DNA from: Fibrobacterota bacterium
GTDB lineage: Bacteria; Fibrobacterota; Fibrobacteria; UBA11236
Length of the DNA stretch: 64,000 bases
Reading direction: 5' to 3'
Assembly: GCA_947482115.1 (NCBI GenBank)
Contig: CANKII010000002.1
Coordinates: forward strand, 186,001-250,000
The notes beneath the pieces were generated by a model. That model was not told the DNA's origin. It ran no database searches and worked only from the letters and a program-made list of their open reading frames with translations. Positions 3,373-37,177 of the stretch are shown here, one piece after another. The translations under genes were made by a program, and so were the position numbers. Each line of letters opens with the position of its first letter. The stretch's first letter is position 1.

Positions 3373-4767
3373 CTATCCCGATACGTGGATGTTGTCCACC
3401 AGCACGTCGGGAACTTTTACGGAAGAGAAAGAATCCGAGTAACTGTCGGAAAAACCGCGAATGAGATTGAGGAGATCAAAGAAGTTGGTGTTCAAGGTCA
3501 CCCGATCCACAGCGTGAATGCGTTTTCCACCTTCGTAGAAAAATCCCTGCGCCCCAATGGAGATTTCACCGGACACCGCAGAGCAACCCGAACCGCCTTC
3601 GAGTTTGACCACGTAAAAGCAGCGGGGATTGGCAGTGAGAAGTTCATCCAAAGTTTGGTTTCCCTTGCGAACCATGTAATTCGCAAAACCCGTTCCCGCC
3701 TTTCCGGAATAGCCGCGGGATGCCGTTCCAGTGGGAGCGACTCCGTCTTTTTTCGCGGATTCGAGATTGTAAAGAAAGGTTTGCAAGACGCCGTCGCGTA
3801 CGATATCCAGTTTGCGGGCAGCAACACCTTCACCGTCGAAGAGATAGGAGCCGGGCATCAATGGAATGAACGGATCACTGACCAGATTGAATTCGGGAAC
3901 GGCGATGGACTGTCCGAGTTTTCCCGATAGCCGTGACTGTCCCTTTTGCACGGCCTCGGCGAAAAACGGCGAAGAGAACATGGAAAAGATTTGCGGGCTG
4001 ACGCGGTTGGAAAACACCACGGGATAGGTTCCCGACTCCAGCGGTGAAGCGTTGAGCAATTCCACGGCGCGTTCCACGGCCTTGTGCGCGATGAACTCGG
4101 CATCGAACTCAAAAGAGCGTCCGGCCTTGCTGTACACACCCATTTTTTTGTTCTCGCCATCCTTGGCCACTGCGCCCAATCCGGCGGAAACGGAACTCTG
4201 GCGCGATTGGTAAAACACGCCGTTGGAATTGCGCAGCATGGAAAATCCACTACCGCGCGAAACGCCGAGATAGGGAACATTCTCAATACGGCTATCGGTT
4301 TTTAGTGCAATCTCTTCCAGCTTGAGGCCAAAGTTTTTCATGTCCTCAAAGGACACCGATTCCAAATCCGGATTGAAAAGCCGTAGATCGATTTCAGGCA
4401 ATGGCGCGGGATGGGGGAGATCGATTTCCACTTCATCGGTCAATGAAGCATGACTCCACGCATCGGCTACAGTGCGGGCCAGCGCTTCGCGCGTCATGCG
4501 TTCGGTGAATGCGAAGCCGGGACGTTTGCCGCGAAAGAGTCGGACGCCAATGCCGCGCGAATTGGAAAGCTCGGTGCTTTTCACCTTGCCTTCAAACAAT
4601 TCCAGTCCCATGCTTTCGGATTCTCCGGCGACAATGTCGAAGCGATCCGCGCCCTGCCGACGGCTTTCTTCACTGACGAAATCTACCGCGTCGGCAGGTG
4701 ATAAAGTTTGATTGATAGGATGCCCAGAGTCCGGACCCTGAGCCTGTCGAAGGGTCGAGGAGATCAT
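3373..4767 (-). CDS. tldE: Metalloprotease TldE/PmbA
   Basis: Second subunit of the TldD/TldE heterodimeric protease, which in other bacteria processes peptides such as microcin B17 and CcdA. The protein matches the PmbA/TldE family along its length: FDIVAGESESMGLELFEGKVKSTE near the N-terminus, then AKDGENKKMGVYSKAGRS, and ESGTYPVVFSNRVS in the middle. It lacks the HExxxH motif, as expected for TldE. Start chosen at ATG 4767, which overlaps the tldD stop as ATGA; the longer tracked start is not needed. Codons right after the start (STLRQAQGPDSG) come from a REP-like palindrome at 4735-4755, so the first ~14 residues are probably not conserved. Confidence 0.9.
   Translation of the reverse strand: MISSTLRQAQGPDSGHPINQTLSPADAVDFVSEESRRQGADRFDIVAGESESMGLELFEGKVKSTELSNSRGIGVRLFRGKRPGFAFTERMTREALARTVADAWSHASLTDEVEIDLPHPAPLPEIDLRLFNPDLESVSFEDMKNFGLKLEEIALKTDSRIENVPYLGVSRGSGFSMLRNSNGVFYQSRQSSVSAGLGAVAKDGENKKMGVYSKAGRSFEFDAEFIAHKAVERAVELLNASPLESGTYPVVFSNRVSPQIFSMFSSPFFAEAVQKGQSRLSGKLGQSIAVPEFNLVSDPFIPLMPGSYLFDGEGVAARKLDIVRDGVLQTFLYNLESAKKDGVAPTGTASRGYSGKAGTGFANYMVRKGNQTLDELLTANPRCFYVVKLEGGSGCSAVSGEISIGAQGFFYEGGKRIHAVDRVTLNTNFFDLLNLIRGFSDSYSDSFSSVKVPDVLVDNIHVSG
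4735..4755. repeat. REP-like palindrome, copy 1 (inside tldE 5' coding region)
   Basis: Contains the 19-mer CCCTGAGCCTGTCGAAGGG (4736-4754), identical to the copy at 5877-5895. It lies just inside the tldE start and is translated. Confidence 0.8.
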
Positions 4768-6173
4768 CTTCCACCTACCAAGATGCTGTCCACGCGTAAA
4801 GTGGGCTGCCCCACATTGACCGGAATGCTTCCACTCGATGCACCGCACATGCCGGCAGCCAGTTCGAGATCATTGCCCACCATGGAAATGAGCGGAAGGA
4901 TTTCAGGGCCTTTGCCGATCAAGGTCGCACCACGAACGGCTTCCGCGATTTGTCCATGCCGGATGACATAACCTTCCTCCACGGCGAAGTTGAATTCACC
5001 CGTGGCGGGATTCACGGAACCGCCGCCCAGTTTTTTGGCGTACAATCCGTCTTCCACGCTGGCGAGAACTTCGGCGGGAGTGTGCTTGCCTGCTGCGATA
5101 TAGGTATTGCGCATACGGGACACAGGAGCATATTGATAGCTCTCACGGCGCGCGCTGCCGGAAAGCACTACGCCCGTTTCTTCCGCGCCGACACGATCGC
5201 TCATGTAGGTTTTGAGCACACCGTTTTCGATCAGAGTTGTCTTTTCGGATGGCCGTCCTTCGTCATCCATTTGAATGGAACCCCACGAACCTTCGATGAG
5301 TCCATCATCAATGGCGGTAACTTCGGAGTGCGCAATCTGTTCACCGATCTTTCCCGTAAACACGGAGGCTTTGTGCCGCACACCTTCGGTTTCCAAAAGA
5401 TGTCCGCAGGCTTCGTGGAAAATGACTCCGCCGAACCCGTTGCCCATCACCACTGGCATTTTTCCGCCCTTGACATATCCGGCGGAAAGCATGCGCACGG
5501 CGCGCTCGGCGGCATCATGTGCATAACGCTCGGCATCGAGTCCCTCGAAAAATTCAAATCCGCGTTGAACACCCGGTGCTTCGCCAGCTACAAAAATTTC
5601 CCCGCCTTCTTCAGCGGTGACGCTGATGTGGAAGCGGCAGCGCGTGCGTGTGTCCGTGACCCAAAGTCCGTCGCTGTTGCAAATCAATATTTCCGAAACG
5701 ACATCACCCGCACGGGCGTTCACCTGCGAGATTTTTTTCGAGAAGGATCGTGCGGCTTGATCGGCGCGCAGCAACAGATCCAGTTTTCGTTCCTGACCGA
5801 TGGTGCGTGGATCCAAAACGATGCGCTGGCGGTTTTCCAGTTGAACACCAACGATTGGTTTGGACACAGGCATGGTCCCTGAGCCTGTCGAAGGGTGCCG
5901 TGCCCCCACAACCGGGCCACGCGATTGCGCCAACGCATCGATCAATTTCAACAGATGTTCTTCGTCATCCTTGCTGGTATGGGCATAGAGAACTTCCGTC
6001 CCGAACAAAAGGCGTATGCCGATGCCGTAGTCCGTGCCCGCCGTGGCGGACTCGACCTTCTTGTCCTTGTAGGACACCGAGGCATGGCGGGTTTCCTCCT
6101 CGAAAAGTTCTGTAAAATCCGCGCCGCGGTCGCGGCCGGCCTGCAATAATCGTTGGGCTTTTTCTTGTTCCAT
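4764..6173 (-). CDS. tldD: Metalloprotease TldD
   Basis: Catalytic subunit of the TldD/TldE protease. The zinc motif HEACGH (residues ~253-258, context GGVIFHEACGHLLE) is the HExxxH signature of TldD. The C-terminal region NTYIAAGKHTPAEVLASVEDG and GVYSK-type blocks fit the family, and length (~469 aa) is normal. Start ATG 6173 (MEQEKAQRLL) is preferred over the tracked GTG at 6209; neither has a strong ribosome-binding site. Residues ~92-101 (RHPSTGSGTM) are encoded by a REP-like palindrome at 5877-5895. First gene of the minus-strand operon tldD-tldE-ABC ATPase-permease, divergent from the ATP-grasp operon. Confidence 0.92.
   Translation of the reverse strand: MEQEKAQRLLQAGRDRGADFTELFEEETRHASVSYKDKKVESATAGTDYGIGIRLLFGTEVLYAHTSKDDEEHLLKLIDALAQSRGPVVGARHPSTGSGTMPVSKPIVGVQLENRQRIVLDPRTIGQERKLDLLLRADQAARSFSKKISQVNARAGDVVSEILICNSDGLWVTDTRTRCRFHISVTAEEGGEIFVAGEAPGVQRGFEFFEGLDAERYAHDAAERAVRMLSAGYVKGGKMPVVMGNGFGGVIFHEACGHLLETEGVRHKASVFTGKIGEQIAHSEVTAIDDGLIEGSWGSIQMDDEGRPSEKTTLIENGVLKTYMSDRVGAEETGVVLSGSARRESYQYAPVSRMRNTYIAAGKHTPAEVLASVEDGLYAKKLGGGSVNPATGEFNFAVEEGYVIRHGQIAEAVRGATLIGKGPEILPLISMVGNDLELAAGMCGASSGSIPVNVGQPTLRVDSILVGGR
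5877..5895. repeat. REP-like palindrome, copy 2 (inside tldD)
   Basis: The same 19-mer CCCTGAGCCTGTCGAAGGG as copy 1, here within the tldD reading frame, in a different frame of translation from the tldE copy. Confidence 0.8.
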
Positions 6174-32384: not shown

Positions 32385-32460
32385 GTCCTTGTAGTTCAAC
32401 AGGATAGAACGGTGGTTTCCTAAACCGCTAATCCCCGTTCGAGTCGGGGCGAGGACACCA
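32385..32460 (+). tRNA. tRNA-Arg (anticodon CCT)
   Basis: Acceptor GTCCTTG/CGAGGAC, discriminator A, encoded CCA. The anticodon stem GTGGT/ACCGC encloses TTCCTAA, giving CCT. The T arm CCCGT-TCGAGTC-GGGGC closes with one wobble. 76 nt. Confidence 0.92.
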
Positions 32461-32617: not shown

Positions 32618-34168
32618 GTGCTGCACCGTAGCAAGTTTTTTTCCTATTCCGTATTGACAGCCGGCGCGATTCTCCTGATGATGTCGGTGTTTTATTCCTG
32701 CGCTTTTGACACCGGTTTGGTGGATGTGCCGCGACCTCTGGGAAGCTTCACCGGCGTCATTCATGGCGATAGCATACCTCAAACTGCCAATCTTAGGCTT
32801 GCAGTGATTTGGCAGTCCACCAACGGGGGGATCAGCACATGGGATCTGGGAAACCCAAGCTTGGATGCAGGTGGCACATCCTTTACAGGCAGTATTACTC
32901 GGCTTCCCGAGACGGAAATTTCGAATTCGGATGAATTTATTCTGGGAAAATTGTGTCTTTACAACGACACCAATGGAAATCACAAGCTGGATTTTGCCTC
33001 TCAAGAATACGAACGTATTCGAGCAGAAATTCATGATGTCAAGCTCCAACTTCAAACATCATTTGCAACGCTTATGAGCTACGGAGACACCATTCAGTCC
33101 AAGTCTGGAGTTTCAGACTCTTTTTGGGTAGGCAATGGACGGATTTATCACGGAAGCAGTACTAATTCCCCAGTCATTAAGAACCAAGAAGGAGCTGGAG
33201 GTCGTGAATGGGATTGGCGTTCTTTACTCAAGGCCAGGTTTCGAGTCTTGTTCCATCCTGACAAGTGGGAAGATTTCTTTAATCATGACGGGTCTTTTTC
33301 AACAGACGACCTTGACATAACTGGACTGGGAGTGGACACGGCTGTAACCTCGTGTCAACTGGAACGTTTGCGTCCTCACAAGGGGCGTGAGGCGGAATTC
33401 GAACAAACTTTGCAAGCCACCACCCTGAAACAAGCCATACTGGATTCTCTGACAAATGCCGCAAAATCGGAAATTAACCGGGTTTGGCATCAGGAAGCAC
33501 CTAACTTGGGGTTTGAAAGAGTCTTGGCAAGTTCGGATTCAGACTACATTGTTTACTTTTCTGGACAGAATTCAAGAAATGCAATGCTTGAAGCGGAAAA
33601 AGCCAGTGCTTTCTCCGTAGCTCAAAAGGGGAACCTTAGAGTGGGCTTTAATTTGATGGAATGTGATACAGTTGGCGCTTGCGTTGCCAAAGATCTACGC
33701 CTTGATCCGCGCACTTTGAAGAGTATCGATCCGGTTTCGCTGAGTTCGGGTGTTCTTTCAATTCCGGTTTTCGAGTTCCCCACAATTTCCTCGAACCTTT
33801 TTTATCCTGACAGCATCACACCTACAGATGTTAGTCCAGCATTGGATCAATTTATTGGAGAATATCAGTGTTCCTGTGGCAAATCTTTGGAAATAGTTCT
33901 CTCAGAACGAGATGGCTTATCGCTCATGACTCAAAATTTTGGGACTCGGAACCTCATTCAAGCTAAAGCGGATAGCAGCGTATTTTTTTATAAGGACAGC
34001 ACTCTTAATTTGCAGGTTCGGTTTATCCAGAACGAGTCTGGGGAACAAACCGGTGGCTATAAATTGTTGATGAGCTTTTTGGATCGCAGGACAACGTCCT
34101 ACAGTTCATCACGGCTATTTGCATACTATGTGGGGGCTTCTTCTCAGGATTCGGTGGATTCAAGATGA
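32618..34168 (+). CDS. Hypothetical lipoprotein upstream of and coupled to an ECF sigma factor
   Basis: 516 residues from GTG 32618; the only in-frame ATG upstream (32558) is cut off by a stop. Lipoprotein signal SVLTAGAILLMMSVFYSC is followed by a beta-rich region and a Ca-loop-like motif YNDTNGNHKLDF (~115-125). A further beta-rich domain has a CSC motif (GEYQCSCGKSLEIVLSERDG, ~405-425). No family recognised. The stop overlaps the next start as ATGA, so it is translationally coupled to the sigma-factor gene. Probably an envelope protein belonging to the same system. Confidence 0.7.
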   Translation: MLHRSKFFSYSVLTAGAILLMMSVFYSCAFDTGLVDVPRPLGSFTGVIHGDSIPQTANLRLAVIWQSTNGGISTWDLGNPSLDAGGTSFTGSITRLPETEISNSDEFILGKLCLYNDTNGNHKLDFASQEYERIRAEIHDVKLQLQTSFATLMSYGDTIQSKSGVSDSFWVGNGRIYHGSSTNSPVIKNQEGAGGREWDWRSLLKARFRVLFHPDKWEDFFNHDGSFSTDDLDITGLGVDTAVTSCQLERLRPHKGREAEFEQTLQATTLKQAILDSLTNAAKSEINRVWHQEAPNLGFERVLASSDSDYIVYFSGQNSRNAMLEAEKASAFSVAQKGNLRVGFNLMECDTVGACVAKDLRLDPRTLKSIDPVSLSSGVLSIPVFEFPTISSNLFYPDSITPTDVSPALDQFIGEYQCSCGKSLEIVLSERDGLSLMTQNFGTRNLIQAKADSSVFFYKDSTLNLQVRFIQNESGEQTGGYKLLMSFLDRRTTSYSSSRLFAYYVGASSQDSVDSR

Positions 34169-34776
34169 AACCCGAACTAATGATGTCCGTTAAAATTTCG
34201 CCATCTTCTTTTGAGAAGGTCGAACTTGCGACGATCGCTCCGGGTGCTGATGGGCTGGAGGAACTTTTCCGTCGCTATTCCAATATGGTGTTTCGCATAT
34301 GTCTGCGCTATACCAAGAACCGCGAAGATGCTGAGGACATGGTATCCGAAGTTTTTATGAAGGTGAACAAAGGGAAAGATGATTATCGCGGTGATGCCAA
34401 ACCCATGGTTTGGATTTATCGAATAGCTGTAAATCATTGCTTGGATCATCTCCGTTCCAGAAAATCAAGAAACGAGCTGGATTTGGAGGATTTGGACACC
34501 CAGGCGTTAAGGACGCTTGAAGGACATGGAGATCGTTGTCTGGCAAAAATCACTTTGGAGCGAATTTTAGGCAAAATCAACCCTACAACTCGTAAAATCC
34601 TCTTTTTATGCCATGTAGAAGGCTTGACGCATGGTGAAATAGCCAAAATTCTTGGGGTTACGCGGGAGGCAGTTACGAAAAAACTGCACCGTTTTTCAGA
34701 AGAAATGAAGCGCAAGGAAAAAAATTGGTCTGAGGTGTCCCCAGAATCGGATAATAATCGTCTTATGGGGGTGTAA
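34165..34776 (+). CDS. ECF-type RNA polymerase sigma factor
   Basis: Sigma-70 region 2 (LEELFRRYSNMVFRICLRYTKNREDAEDMVSEVFMKV ... VWIYRIAVNHCLDHLRSR) and region 4 (TRKILFLCHVEGLTHGEIAKILGVTREAVTKKLHRF) are present with no region 3, as in ECF factors. 203 residues. It is coupled to the upstream lipoprotein by an ATGA overlap and lies 2 bp before the anti-sigma gene. Confidence 0.92.
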   Translation: MKPELMMSVKISPSSFEKVELATIAPGADGLEELFRRYSNMVFRICLRYTKNREDAEDMVSEVFMKVNKGKDDYRGDAKPMVWIYRIAVNHCLDHLRSRKSRNELDLEDLDTQALRTLEGHGDRCLAKITLERILGKINPTTRKILFLCHVEGLTHGEIAKILGVTREAVTKKLHRFSEEMKRKEKNWSEVSPESDNNRLMGV

Positions 34777-34778
34777 CC

Positions 34779-35558
34779 ATGATCTCCCAATACCTCAAAG
34801 ATATGGGTAAAAAAATGAAACCTTCCCTTTTTAGGGTTGAACAGTACCTGAACGGCGAACTAAATACCGCGGAATCCCGGGATTTTGAGTCGCTTATGGC
34901 ATCAGATCCTGATTTGAAAAGCTTTGTCCAATCCCAAAGCAGGATTCGGTACGAAGGCTTTATTCCTGCATTTCAGTCGGCAAAAATCCAAGCCGCTCGT
35001 TTCAGCCAACCTTCCGTCTTTTCGGAATGGCGTAGAAAAATGGGCGAGCGTTTTTCTCCTGTCTTTCCACCCCAAGTGGCATGGGCCATGGGACTTTGTC
35101 TTCTTGCCGGTGCAGTTTTGGTGCTTTTCCGCCCTGAGCGGTTGGAATATCCGGTACAGGATTTTACCGCCAAGGGTAGTAGTGCTCCTTTCCATTTGCG
35201 GGTTGGGGCAAAGGATTTTCAACCGGAGCAATCCGGGTTTGTCAAAGCTGGTGACACCATGTCCTTTGTATATCGCAGCTTGACGGGTGCACACGTGCAG
35301 ATTTGGTATCAGGATGATGGTGGAGAAATCAAGCCTTACTTGGCCCCCACTTCCGGTGCGTCCTCTTGGGCGGGCACCTCGACTTGGCGTCAAGCCGATT
35401 ACAAGGTTGTTCTTTTTTCGGATTGGAATAAGGAATCAATCTGGGTTCTGTGGTCCGATCAGGATTTTGGAAATCAAGAGGCCCGAAAGGTTCTTGAAGG
35501 TGGTCGAGGCGGAGAAGCCATCCAAAAGGTTGCTTTCCATCTCGTCCGGACACCGTAG
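34779..35558 (+). CDS. Membrane-anchored anti-sigma factor-like protein with DUF4384-like domain
   Basis: The cytoplasmic N-terminus (~13-50, VEQYLNGELNTAESRDFESLMASDPDL) has the Y-L-x-G-E-L pattern of anti-sigma domains. One membrane helix follows (QVAWAMGLCLLAGAVLVLF, ~99-117). The periplasmic domain (~135-255, GDTMSFVYRSLTGAHVQIWYQDDGGEIKPYL) resembles the DUF4384 domains that accompany caspase-like proteins in other bacteria. Likely holds the upstream ECF factor inactive. Start 34779 is supported by a GGGGGTG-type site. Confidence 0.7.
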   Translation: MISQYLKDMGKKMKPSLFRVEQYLNGELNTAESRDFESLMASDPDLKSFVQSQSRIRYEGFIPAFQSAKIQAARFSQPSVFSEWRRKMGERFSPVFPPQVAWAMGLCLLAGAVLVLFRPERLEYPVQDFTAKGSSAPFHLRVGAKDFQPEQSGFVKAGDTMSFVYRSLTGAHVQIWYQDDGGEIKPYLAPTSGASSWAGTSTWRQADYKVVLFSDWNKESIWVLWSDQDFGNQEARKVLEGGRGGEAIQKVAFHLVRTP

Positions 35559-35566
35559 AGGAACTG

Positions 35567-37177
35567 ATGAAATCGATTTGGCGCGTCGCTTTGGTTTTGG
35601 CGATGATGCAATGCATCACCCTAGGTTGGTCCGGGGTGCAGAGGCTGGCCCTCCTGGTCGGAAGCGACAGGGGTTTGCGCAATGAAACTCCCTTAAAATA
35701 TGCCGACAGGGATGCCCGCCAAATGGCGGATGTTCTTGCAAATTCCGGAACTTTTGACAAGGATGGGATTTACATCCTTCCCAATCCCACACTTAGCGAA
35801 GTGCGCGCAACGCTCCAGGAAATTCGAGCCCGCGTCAAACAGATTGCCAAATCCGGAAAAGAGAGCATGGTCTGGGTTTATTTCTCGGGTCACGGGGGTT
35901 CCGGTGCAGTTCATATCTCCGGACAGCGTTTGACTATTGAGGAAATTCGTGATTACTTGGGTTCGCTCGAATCCGGTTTAAAAATTCTTGTTGTGGATGC
36001 CTGTGAGTCGGGAGACATGCTCCGTCAAAAGGGCGGCCAGGTTGTTGAGGATCGCCAGATTCAGGCCGATGATCGACTCGAGGCACATGGGACGGTTGTT
36101 CTCAGTTCCAGTGCGCAGGGAGAGGAAGCCCAAGAATCCGAAAAGTATCAGGGTTCGGTTTTTACGCATCATCTCATCAATGGTTTGCAGGGCATGGCAG
36201 ACAATAACGGCGACAAGGAAATATCCCTCTGGGAAATGTTCTATTACGCCCGTGCCAGCACCCAGGCTGAGAAGATATTGGGTCAGCAAGGTCGTCAAAA
36301 CCCGAGTTTTGATTTCGACGTGGTCGGCCGTGCGGATATTCCCATTGCCTATCTGGAAAAAAGCCGTTCGCGTTTGGTGTTGCGCGGCTTTCCCACTGTT
36401 CCTTTGGAAATATATTCCGCCGGTGGCATGGAGCTGAAAAATCGCTTGTGGCTTACCGGACGCAAGGAAGTGACCATTCAACTTCCCTCCAACGATTACA
36501 TCCTCGCGTATGACGATGGGGATCAAGTTCGTTTGGCTGAAGCGGATTTGTCACATGGAGTGGAAAAAATATTGAGTCCCAAATCCTTCCAGTCCAAGCC
36601 GAGGTCTCTGGTTTATTCCAAAGGCGGTCGTGCCATCAGTGATCACGGATTTCAGGCGTCGATTGGAGACAACAATCCTGCGGGGGATGGCCTGTCCATG
36701 TTCGGAGGACTGGACTACGTATATCGCACCGGCCATTACAAACATGAGGCCGGGATTGGATTTGGAACCGGGGCTTATTCGGATCCGGTTCAGCAAATTC
36801 ACCGCACTTACTACTCTGGCTCTTATGGAGTTGAGCGTTCCATCTACCGCAAGATTCGCTGGCAGCTAATGTTGGGCCCTCAATTCAAGTATTTCGTCGT
36901 AAAACAGGATGCATTGAATAAACAACTGCAGGCAAGTCCGGAAGTCTCAAAAGAATTGGGAGTTTCTCCGAACAGGACTTCCTATTCCCAAATTATGCAG
37001 TTGTCCATGCCGTTGGAATTTGAGACGGAAGTCGGCGGTCCTTTCCCTGCATGGCTGTCCTTGTCTATTTCGCCGCTACACGAAGTCTGGTATCGCGATG
37101 TCAATCTGAACTGGCAAACCCGTTTGCGTTTCCAGCCGGTGGTAGGCTTTTCAATCGGCCGTCATCTCGGTTTTTAA
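35567..37177 (+). CDS. Exported caspase-family (C14) protease with C-terminal barrel-like domain
   Basis: A signal peptide (~1-23) is followed by a caspase p20-like domain with both catalytic residues: His in YFSGHGGSG (~109) and Cys in VVDACESGD (~146). A linker and PEGA-like beta segment (~275-320) lead to a ~200-residue strand-rich C-terminal part (MFGGLDYVYRTGHYKHEAGIGFGTG ... PVVGFSIGRHLGF). This ends in Phe and is consistent with an outer-membrane barrel. The protease domain would therefore sit in the periplasm or at the surface. It follows the anti-sigma gene by 8 bp; the operon order is lipoprotein-sigma-anti-sigma-caspase. Confidence 0.85.
   Translation: MKSIWRVALVLAMMQCITLGWSGVQRLALLVGSDRGLRNETPLKYADRDARQMADVLANSGTFDKDGIYILPNPTLSEVRATLQEIRARVKQIAKSGKESMVWVYFSGHGGSGAVHISGQRLTIEEIRDYLGSLESGLKILVVDACESGDMLRQKGGQVVEDRQIQADDRLEAHGTVVLSSSAQGEEAQESEKYQGSVFTHHLINGLQGMADNNGDKEISLWEMFYYARASTQAEKILGQQGRQNPSFDFDVVGRADIPIAYLEKSRSRLVLRGFPTVPLEIYSAGGMELKNRLWLTGRKEVTIQLPSNDYILAYDDGDQVRLAEADLSHGVEKILSPKSFQSKPRSLVYSKGGRAISDHGFQASIGDNNPAGDGLSMFGGLDYVYRTGHYKHEAGIGFGTGAYSDPVQQIHRTYYSGSYGVERSIYRKIRWQLMLGPQFKYFVVKQDALNKQLQASPEVSKELGVSPNRTSYSQIMQLSMPLEFETEVGGPFPAWLSLSISPLHEVWYRDVNLNWQTRLRFQPVVGFSIGRHLGF

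Follow-up and report, generated by a model that had tools for sequence, protein, structure and literature searches.

The stretch of DNA analyzed here, hereafter the window, comprises 64,000 nucleotides of a Fibrobacterota genome (assembly GCA_947482115.1, contig CANKII010000002.1, positions 186,001 to 250,000). At window positions 32618-37177 it contains four tightly packed, co-directional genes on the plus strand, which encode a putative lipoprotein, an extracytoplasmic function (ECF) sigma factor, a putative membrane anti-sigma factor and a caspase homologue with a predicted C-terminal β-barrel (Table 1). The last three genes form a conserved module, and a Lys/Arg-Gly dipeptide that is nearly invariant in the juxtamembrane linker of the anti-sigma factor recurs at two positions of the caspase. 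The occurrence of the same pair in disordered loops of both proteins suggests that the caspase cuts itself and then the anti-sigma factor. We consider it fairly probable that the operon encodes a trans-envelope sigma factor switch with the caspase as site-1 protease. A proteolytic signalling circuit across the envelope had already been proposed in the initial annotation of the window, and the barrel prediction, the conserved gene linkage and the common motif lend support to such a circuit as far as sequences and models can indicate it.

A conserved gene trio with a common Lys/Arg-Gly motif

The four-gene operon, which had been annotated as apparent, is real. All four open reading frames were found, flanked by purL on the minus strand and by hemE. 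The first gene (ORF1) and the sigma factor gene share the overlap ATGA, as had been described, and the following intergenic gaps measure 2 and 8 nucleotides. The expectation that the same gene set would be found in other genomes holds for the trio of sigma factor, anti-sigma factor and caspase, but not for the lipoprotein gene. At least 80 loci of Fibrobacteria, Myxococcus-type metagenome-assembled genomes and a third genome set have the genes in the order sigma, anti-sigma, caspase. This order does not result from chance, and it is kept in nearly all loci fetched from the class, in which one genus carries several paralogous copies per genome. Caspase homologues occur in 52 of the 61 genomes of the class Fibrobacteria, and a phylogenetic profile of these genomes revealed that caspase and anti-sigma factor are jointly present or jointly absent in 60 of them (both 51, neither nine, caspase only one, anti-sigma factor only none). 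The identical trio is present in six loci from genomes that are labelled in GTDB as Archangiaceae, Myxococcus, Myxococcales, Myxococcaceae and uncultured proteobacterium. When the anti-sigma profile alone was run against the phylum of genome G063, the best 30 loci all had a sigma factor gene adjoining the anti-sigma gene and also a caspase gene beside it, except for one locus that ended at a contig edge. Thus, the gene linkage on which the initial annotation had made its proposal depend is conserved in relatives. Plasmid-borne relatives were looked for and none were found. The near-complete genome G001, which belongs to the window's genus, contains neither caspase nor anti-sigma factor, indicating that the module is dispensable and was lost as a unit.

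The motif was analyzed in 93 anti-sigma factors (median pairwise identity 22%) and 89 aligned caspases. The anti-sigma segment across the predicted cut between Lys132 and Gly133 is VQDFTAKGSSAPF. These two residues were the only fully invariant columns in the first 47 anti-sigma factors, and in the complete set the [K/R]-G pair in the juxtamembrane linker provides the only near-invariant positions, with Lys in 91 and Arg in two proteins at position 132, and Gly in 91, Ala in one and Ser in one at position 133. An alignment artefact as the origin of these columns was ruled out by an alignment-free test, which keeps the motif at fixed distances: KG is present in 89 of the 93 linkers compared with 24 expected from shuffled linkers, a second KG is found in only ten, and the Lys is mostly located 28-30 residues before the conserved Asp159 of the periplasmic β-sandwich.

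In the caspase, the pair is found in a low-confidence loop, where the Lys follows the catalytic Cys at a distance of nine residues in 83 proteins. In true caspases, processing takes place about 14 residues past strand β4 (PMC4357240), and Lys155-Gly156 lies near the equivalent place. The second pair is located in the linker before the barrel; here, [K/R]-G was detected without alignment in 84 of 87 sequence segments (34.7 expected), and the Lys or Arg is positioned 41 ± 1 residues from Tyr311 in most proteins. An RxKG context with Arg at P3 is common to the anti-sigma linkers (62 of 93) and the caspase loops (67 of 89).

There are only a few natural controls, and they are in part dependent on each other, since L164-L166, L167-L168 and L117-L124 each represent one orthologous set. 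Three Myxococcus-type caspases without sigma and anti-sigma factors (L164-L166) lack both caspase sites, and two divergent Myxococcus-type systems (L167, L168) carry Arg-Gly at all three sites. No juxtamembrane motif is present in eight DUF4384-like membrane paralogues without a linked caspase (L117-L124, including L117 of the source genome). The anti-sigma factor of genome G045, which is encoded on a separate contig from the caspase, retains RIKG.

The p20-like domain of the caspase contains a His-Cys dyad of the C14B metacaspase/orthocaspase type. In the metacaspase TbMCA2, the S1 pocket involves Cys92, Asp95, Ser156 and Asp211 (PMC4357240; also PMC6426788), and the counterparts of the last three are Asp49, Ser107 and Asp144. 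Asp49 was placed by a profile alignment to plant and fungal metacaspases ('YAerDArr' on 'GCVNDVRR'), Ser107 and Asp144 by the motifs SGH and DxC. Asp49 and Asp144 are conserved in 89 of 89 caspases and Ser107 in 86, corresponding to an acidic S1 pocket of the Lys/Arg type. Because these residues match those of TbMCA2, the caspase is expected to cut after Lys or Arg at P1.

Predicted folds and cellular location

His109 (SGH) and Cys146 (DAC) are intact in the window's caspase and a signal-like helix is found at its N-terminus, confirming the description of a caspase with both catalytic residues and a signal peptide. The strand-rich C-terminus had been suspected to be a barrel, and structure prediction by AlphaFold2 indeed gives an OmpA-like barrel rather than a soluble domain: the model consists of the protease domain, a small β-domain, a disordered joint (residues 347-357) and the barrel. 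Eight predicted strands, the signal sequence and the C-terminal aromatic residue (Phe) are in agreement with this fold, and Foldseek matched the barrel to OmpA (9fzd, template modelling score by target 0.64) and NspA (1p4t, 0.58), and the protease part to legumain. A location in the outer membrane, with the barrel as anchor, is therefore predicted for the caspase. Outer-membrane barrels with an even number of strands have both ends in the periplasm, so that the protease domain should face this compartment. The fusion had been considered uncommon, but the caspase-barrel architecture is common and represents the standard form in this class. The source genome contains one caspase gene, and its product stays below the cut-off of the NCBIfam model caspase_w_EACC1 (NF047832; 66.5 versus 140 bits). 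Fibrobacteraceae caspases (L059:5295-7706 and others) are longer, with GxQxxxxxNxAxx repeats between the release site and a barrel-like C-terminal end; these repeats show a weak match to the LA_2272 surface repeat.

The second gene encodes a short protein with sigma-70 regions 2 and 4 only, as is typical for ECF sigma factors; this assignment and that of the caspase are both strong. The product of the third gene has no significant Pfam match in the window. However, an iterated profile built from it recovers the gene between sigma factor and caspase in essentially all relatives, and zf-HC2 is above cut-off in the orthologues L039 and L044 (6.9e-7 and 2.6e-5). A likeness to DUF4384 (PF14326) is seen in orthologues only (best 5.5e-5, at most 23.6 bits versus a Pfam cut-off of 27). 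The family profile, the zf-HC2 matches and the weak DUF4384 likeness together point to a membrane anti-sigma factor without zinc ligands as product of the third gene; the residues of the zinc motif are absent from the window protein and the HxxxCxxC pattern of the zinc subtype is lost. This protein would bind the sigma factor. The initial annotation had described a membrane anti-sigma factor with a periplasmic DUF4384-like domain, of which the anti-sigma reading is retained, while DUF4384 membership of the window protein was rejected. The AlphaFold2 model comprises a helical N-terminal domain, a transmembrane helix and a β-sandwich, for which Foldseek gave weak Ig-like matches only; confidence is lowest at residues 121-133. 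The source genome also encodes a conserved membrane protein with an anti-sigma-like N-terminal domain and a DUF4384-like outer part (L117:6033-6740; G000:C1:350299-350733), which has no sigma factor or caspase neighbour and has orthologues in every large-genome relative examined.

Table 1. Features of the operon and of the encoded proteins (window positions).
Feature	Position	Strand	Evidence or remark
Putative outer-membrane-type lipoprotein, GTG start, 516 amino acids	32618..34168	+	Accessory of a subgroup; invariant S27-C28 in homologues
ECF sigma factor, 203 amino acids	34165..34776	+	TIGR02937 1.8e-28, PF04542 2.1e-17, PF08281 9.8e-11
Putative one-pass membrane anti-sigma factor, 259 amino acids	34779..35558	+	Iterated profile, zf-HC2 in orthologues, AlphaFold2
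Anti-sigma transmembrane helix, residues 98-116	35070..35126	+	AlphaFold2 and hydropathy
Lys132-Gly133, predicted site-1 cut in disordered periplasmic linker	35172..35177	+	K/R 93/93, G 91/93; within segment 121-133
Periplasmic Ig-like β-sandwich, DUF4384-like in orthologues, residues 138-257	35190..35549	+	AlphaFold2, Foldseek
Exported caspase with OmpA-like β-barrel (predicted fusion), 536 amino acids	35567..37177	+	PF00656 1.6e-18; AlphaFold2, Foldseek
Catalytic His109	35891..35893	+	89/89 aligned caspases
Catalytic Cys146	36002..36004	+	89/89 aligned caspases
Lys155-Gly156, predicted self-processing site, loop after catalytic strand	36029..36034	+	KG 84, RG 2, absent 3 of 89
Small β-domain between caspase and barrel, residues 259-345	36341..36601	+	Secondary structure of model
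Lys352-Gly353, predicted release site, linker before barrel	36620..36625	+	KG 42, RG 38 of 89; low-confidence 347-357
OmpA-like β-barrel, residues 359-533, terminal Phe	36641..37165	+	AlphaFold2, Foldseek

A candidate proteolytic circuit and its alternatives

The region upstream of the sigma factor gene in Fibrobacteraceae contains a conserved bipartite element (TRACACTTTT-N11-GTGTTWMA). The identical word pair occurs in six of nine upstream regions, which are related in sequence, compared with at most three in shuffles. A genome search that was independent of the training sites detected the element directly before the unlinked caspase genes of G057 (0 mismatches) and G045 (one mismatch), and before the unlinked sigma/anti-sigma gene pair of G045 (0 mismatches); matches with two mismatches were about as frequent as in the backward control and were disregarded. 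The common promoter on separated genes indicates that caspase and sigma factor remain one regulatory unit, and its presence before both makes the circuit probably auto-inducing. The element also precedes genes downstream of the caspase that encode a TonB-plug outer-membrane protein, a DUF4249-like protein (sub-threshold, E 0.0095) and a DUF3450 protein. The predicted Fibrobacter sigma regulon (L057:8908-13970 and promoter loci L208-L232) adds a flavin-reductase-like protein.

A circuit can be outlined in which we infer every cleavage step from conservation; its signal and causal order are likewise proposals. The one-pass anti-sigma factor would keep the ECF sigma factor at the inner membrane, as family and operon suggest, and the exported caspase would be fixed in the outer membrane through its barrel and expose its protease domain to the periplasm. 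An envelope signal, perhaps sensed by the barrel, the β-domains or the lipoprotein, would trigger the caspase, which would then cut itself after Lys155 for maturation and after Lys352 for release from the barrel. The freed, Lys/Arg-specific caspase would cut the anti-sigma factor after Lys132, just outside of the inner membrane, and a site-2 protease, for which an M50 protease homologue is present as a candidate, would remove the remaining stub and set the sigma factor free. By transcribing its own operon including the caspase gene, the sigma factor would generate positive feedback, and in Fibrobacteraceae it would also transcribe nearby envelope genes. The initial annotation had suggested that the caspase might act on the sensor part of the anti-sigma factor. 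The common [K/R]-G motif, the Lys/Arg-type S1 pocket and the common promoter of unlinked genes speak for the anti-sigma factor as substrate, but the predicted cut is located in the juxtamembrane linker and not in the sensor domain. The broader proposal is that of a widespread cross-envelope caspase circuit in Fibrobacterota and Myxococcus relatives, in which an anchored zymogen matures and frees itself by two Lys/Arg-Gly cuts, then serves as dedicated site-1 protease of the anti-sigma factor, and is produced in larger amounts by the liberated sigma factor; we give it about an even chance of being correct.

The caspase could alternatively be the output of the system. In this case, the sigma/anti-sigma pair would sense stress via a different site-1 protease and induce a caspase that kills or remodels the cell, and K-G would be trimmed in both proteins by a general periplasmic protease or by feedback from the caspase. 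The caspase gene is the last gene of the operon and has its own sigma promoter when unlinked, as expected for a member of the regulon, and caspase homologues are discussed in the context of cell death in PMC3501461. We nevertheless regard this explanation as unlikely, because the self-processing sites and the anti-sigma site change together, as in the Arg-Gly trio of L167 and L168, and because both caspase sites are absent where the anti-sigma factor is absent. A general protease leaves such a partner-linked loss unexplained.

Two further explanations concern the motif itself. The anti-sigma linker could be a pseudo-substrate, with K-G occupying the active site of the caspase such that the protease, or the sigma factor via the complex, is kept off without any signalling cut. 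This would account for the strict Lys at P1 and Gly at P1' and for the co-occurrence of the two genes, but the caspase carries the same pair at two places, for which self-cleavage is a simpler explanation, and the disordered linker has free flanks and lacks further conserved features of an inhibitor; we judge it improbable. The least probable explanation is a structural one, in which K-G marks the start of the β-sandwich and is unrelated to the caspase. It draws on the near-constant distance to Asp159, with the motif preceding the first strand, and has to contend with the position of K-G in the lowest-confidence disordered segment, with its absence from the DUF4384-like paralogues that have no linked caspase, and with the conservation of the same dipeptide in two unrelated caspase loops.

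Several observations weigh against the caspase as site-1 protease. K-G might instead serve for docking or be recognized by another protease, and a protease tethered to the outer membrane would need prior release or would have to reach across the periplasm. Confidence in the caspase model is medium (mean predicted local distance difference test score 77.8, from 11 homologous sequences), and the anti-sigma function of the window protein is supported solely by its fold, its operon position and the zf-HC2 matches of orthologues. The caspases of L033, L061, L066 and L068 have no clear linker site, and in G057 the caspase is present and an anti-sigma factor was not detected. In the window, the Fibrobacteraceae promoter motif has no match with up to three mismatches. 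The ECF promoter anticipated upstream of position 32618 was found neither by this search nor by a comparison of the seven lipoprotein-type loci, which yielded no common bipartite motif clearly above shuffles (best three of seven, null maximum three); a scan for sigma-70-type promoters returned fewer sites than shuffles.

Relation to known systems and accessory features

The proposed switch resembles the RseA-DegS-RseP/sigma-E system (PMC8103513) with respect to the one-pass inner-membrane anti-sigma factor, the predicted periplasmic site-1 cut near the helix, the available site-2 protease and the ECF sigma factor as output. Different from this system, the site-1 protease would be a barrel-fused cysteine protease of the caspase family instead of a DegS-type serine protease, and K-G sites are found in both protease and substrate. 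Cleavage of an ECF sigma inhibitor by a caspase-family (TPR-CHAT) protease, which relieves inhibition, is also found in the Craspase system Cas7-11/Csx29-Csx30-CASP-sigma (PMC10028731). Craspase is RNA-activated, CRISPR-linked and cytoplasmic, whereas the protease described here is PF00656-type and predicted to be exported and barrel-anchored. Membership in Craspase (type III-E CRISPR) was rejected, as the caspase matches C14/C13 models only and neither the gene order nor the Pfam matches of the operon reveal CRISPR proteins. Control of an ECF sigma factor by a caspase-fold protease has likewise been proposed for ECF54 with its CHAT-protease neighbours (PMC8999054), but ECF54 is described as having no anti-sigma factor, while here the anti-sigma factor is the predicted substrate. 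In systems such as FecA/FecR/FecI (see also PMC11637429), an outer-membrane barrel (a TonB-dependent transducer) signals to an inner-membrane anti-sigma factor and an ECF sigma factor. The caspase has no TonB plug, and the barrel protein itself is predicted to transfer the signal through proteolysis; the predicted Fibrobacteraceae regulon does, however, include a TonB-plug protein.

Operons of sigma-70 factors and metacaspases were listed in 2012 for Myxococcus, Anaeromyxobacter, Haliangium, Sorangium, Ralstonia and Fibrobacter (PMC3501461). They very probably represent the same gene arrangement, as Fibrobacter and Myxococcus are named there. The accessible part of that study is confined to the sigma/metacaspase operon and contains no anti-sigma factor, cleavage motif, barrel, promoter or mechanism.

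Such operons have thus been on record since 2012 with no mechanism in the literature searched. That search covered open-licence publications, and none of those found describes an envelope anti-sigma factor whose site-1 protease is a caspase. To our knowledge, the substrates of most bacterial caspase homologues are unknown. The present analysis names one candidate substrate with its exact bond, and two candidate self-processing bonds. If the proposal is correct, a caspase takes the place of DegS-like proteases in setting off an envelope stress sigma factor. Transcriptional signalling, and not cell death, would then be the first physiological role of an entire branch of bacterial caspases.

The lipoprotein encoded by ORF1 has no Pfam or NCBIfam match. 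Its lipobox is weak in the window (FYSC), but homologues have better versions (LASC, ISSC), and all seven proteins share an invariant S27-C28. The gene is found upstream of the sigma factor gene in only seven loci (the window, L032 and L034-L038), which belong to the window's genus, one large-genome genus and one further family. The initial annotation had included the lipoprotein in the possible signalling circuit; a core role was rejected because the gene is limited to these seven loci of close relatives, and it is an accessory gene of a subgroup.

A tRNA-Arg(CCT) gene is located immediately upstream of the operon (window positions 32385-32460), and a tRNA-like sequence is also found upstream of the lipoprotein gene of L032. 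This locus stems from genome G002 (isolate AM_1606), the closest relative, and its sigma factor gene (4378-5090) is split into two overlapping frames (4378-4761 and 4737-5090); either the gene is broken or the assembly is faulty at this place.

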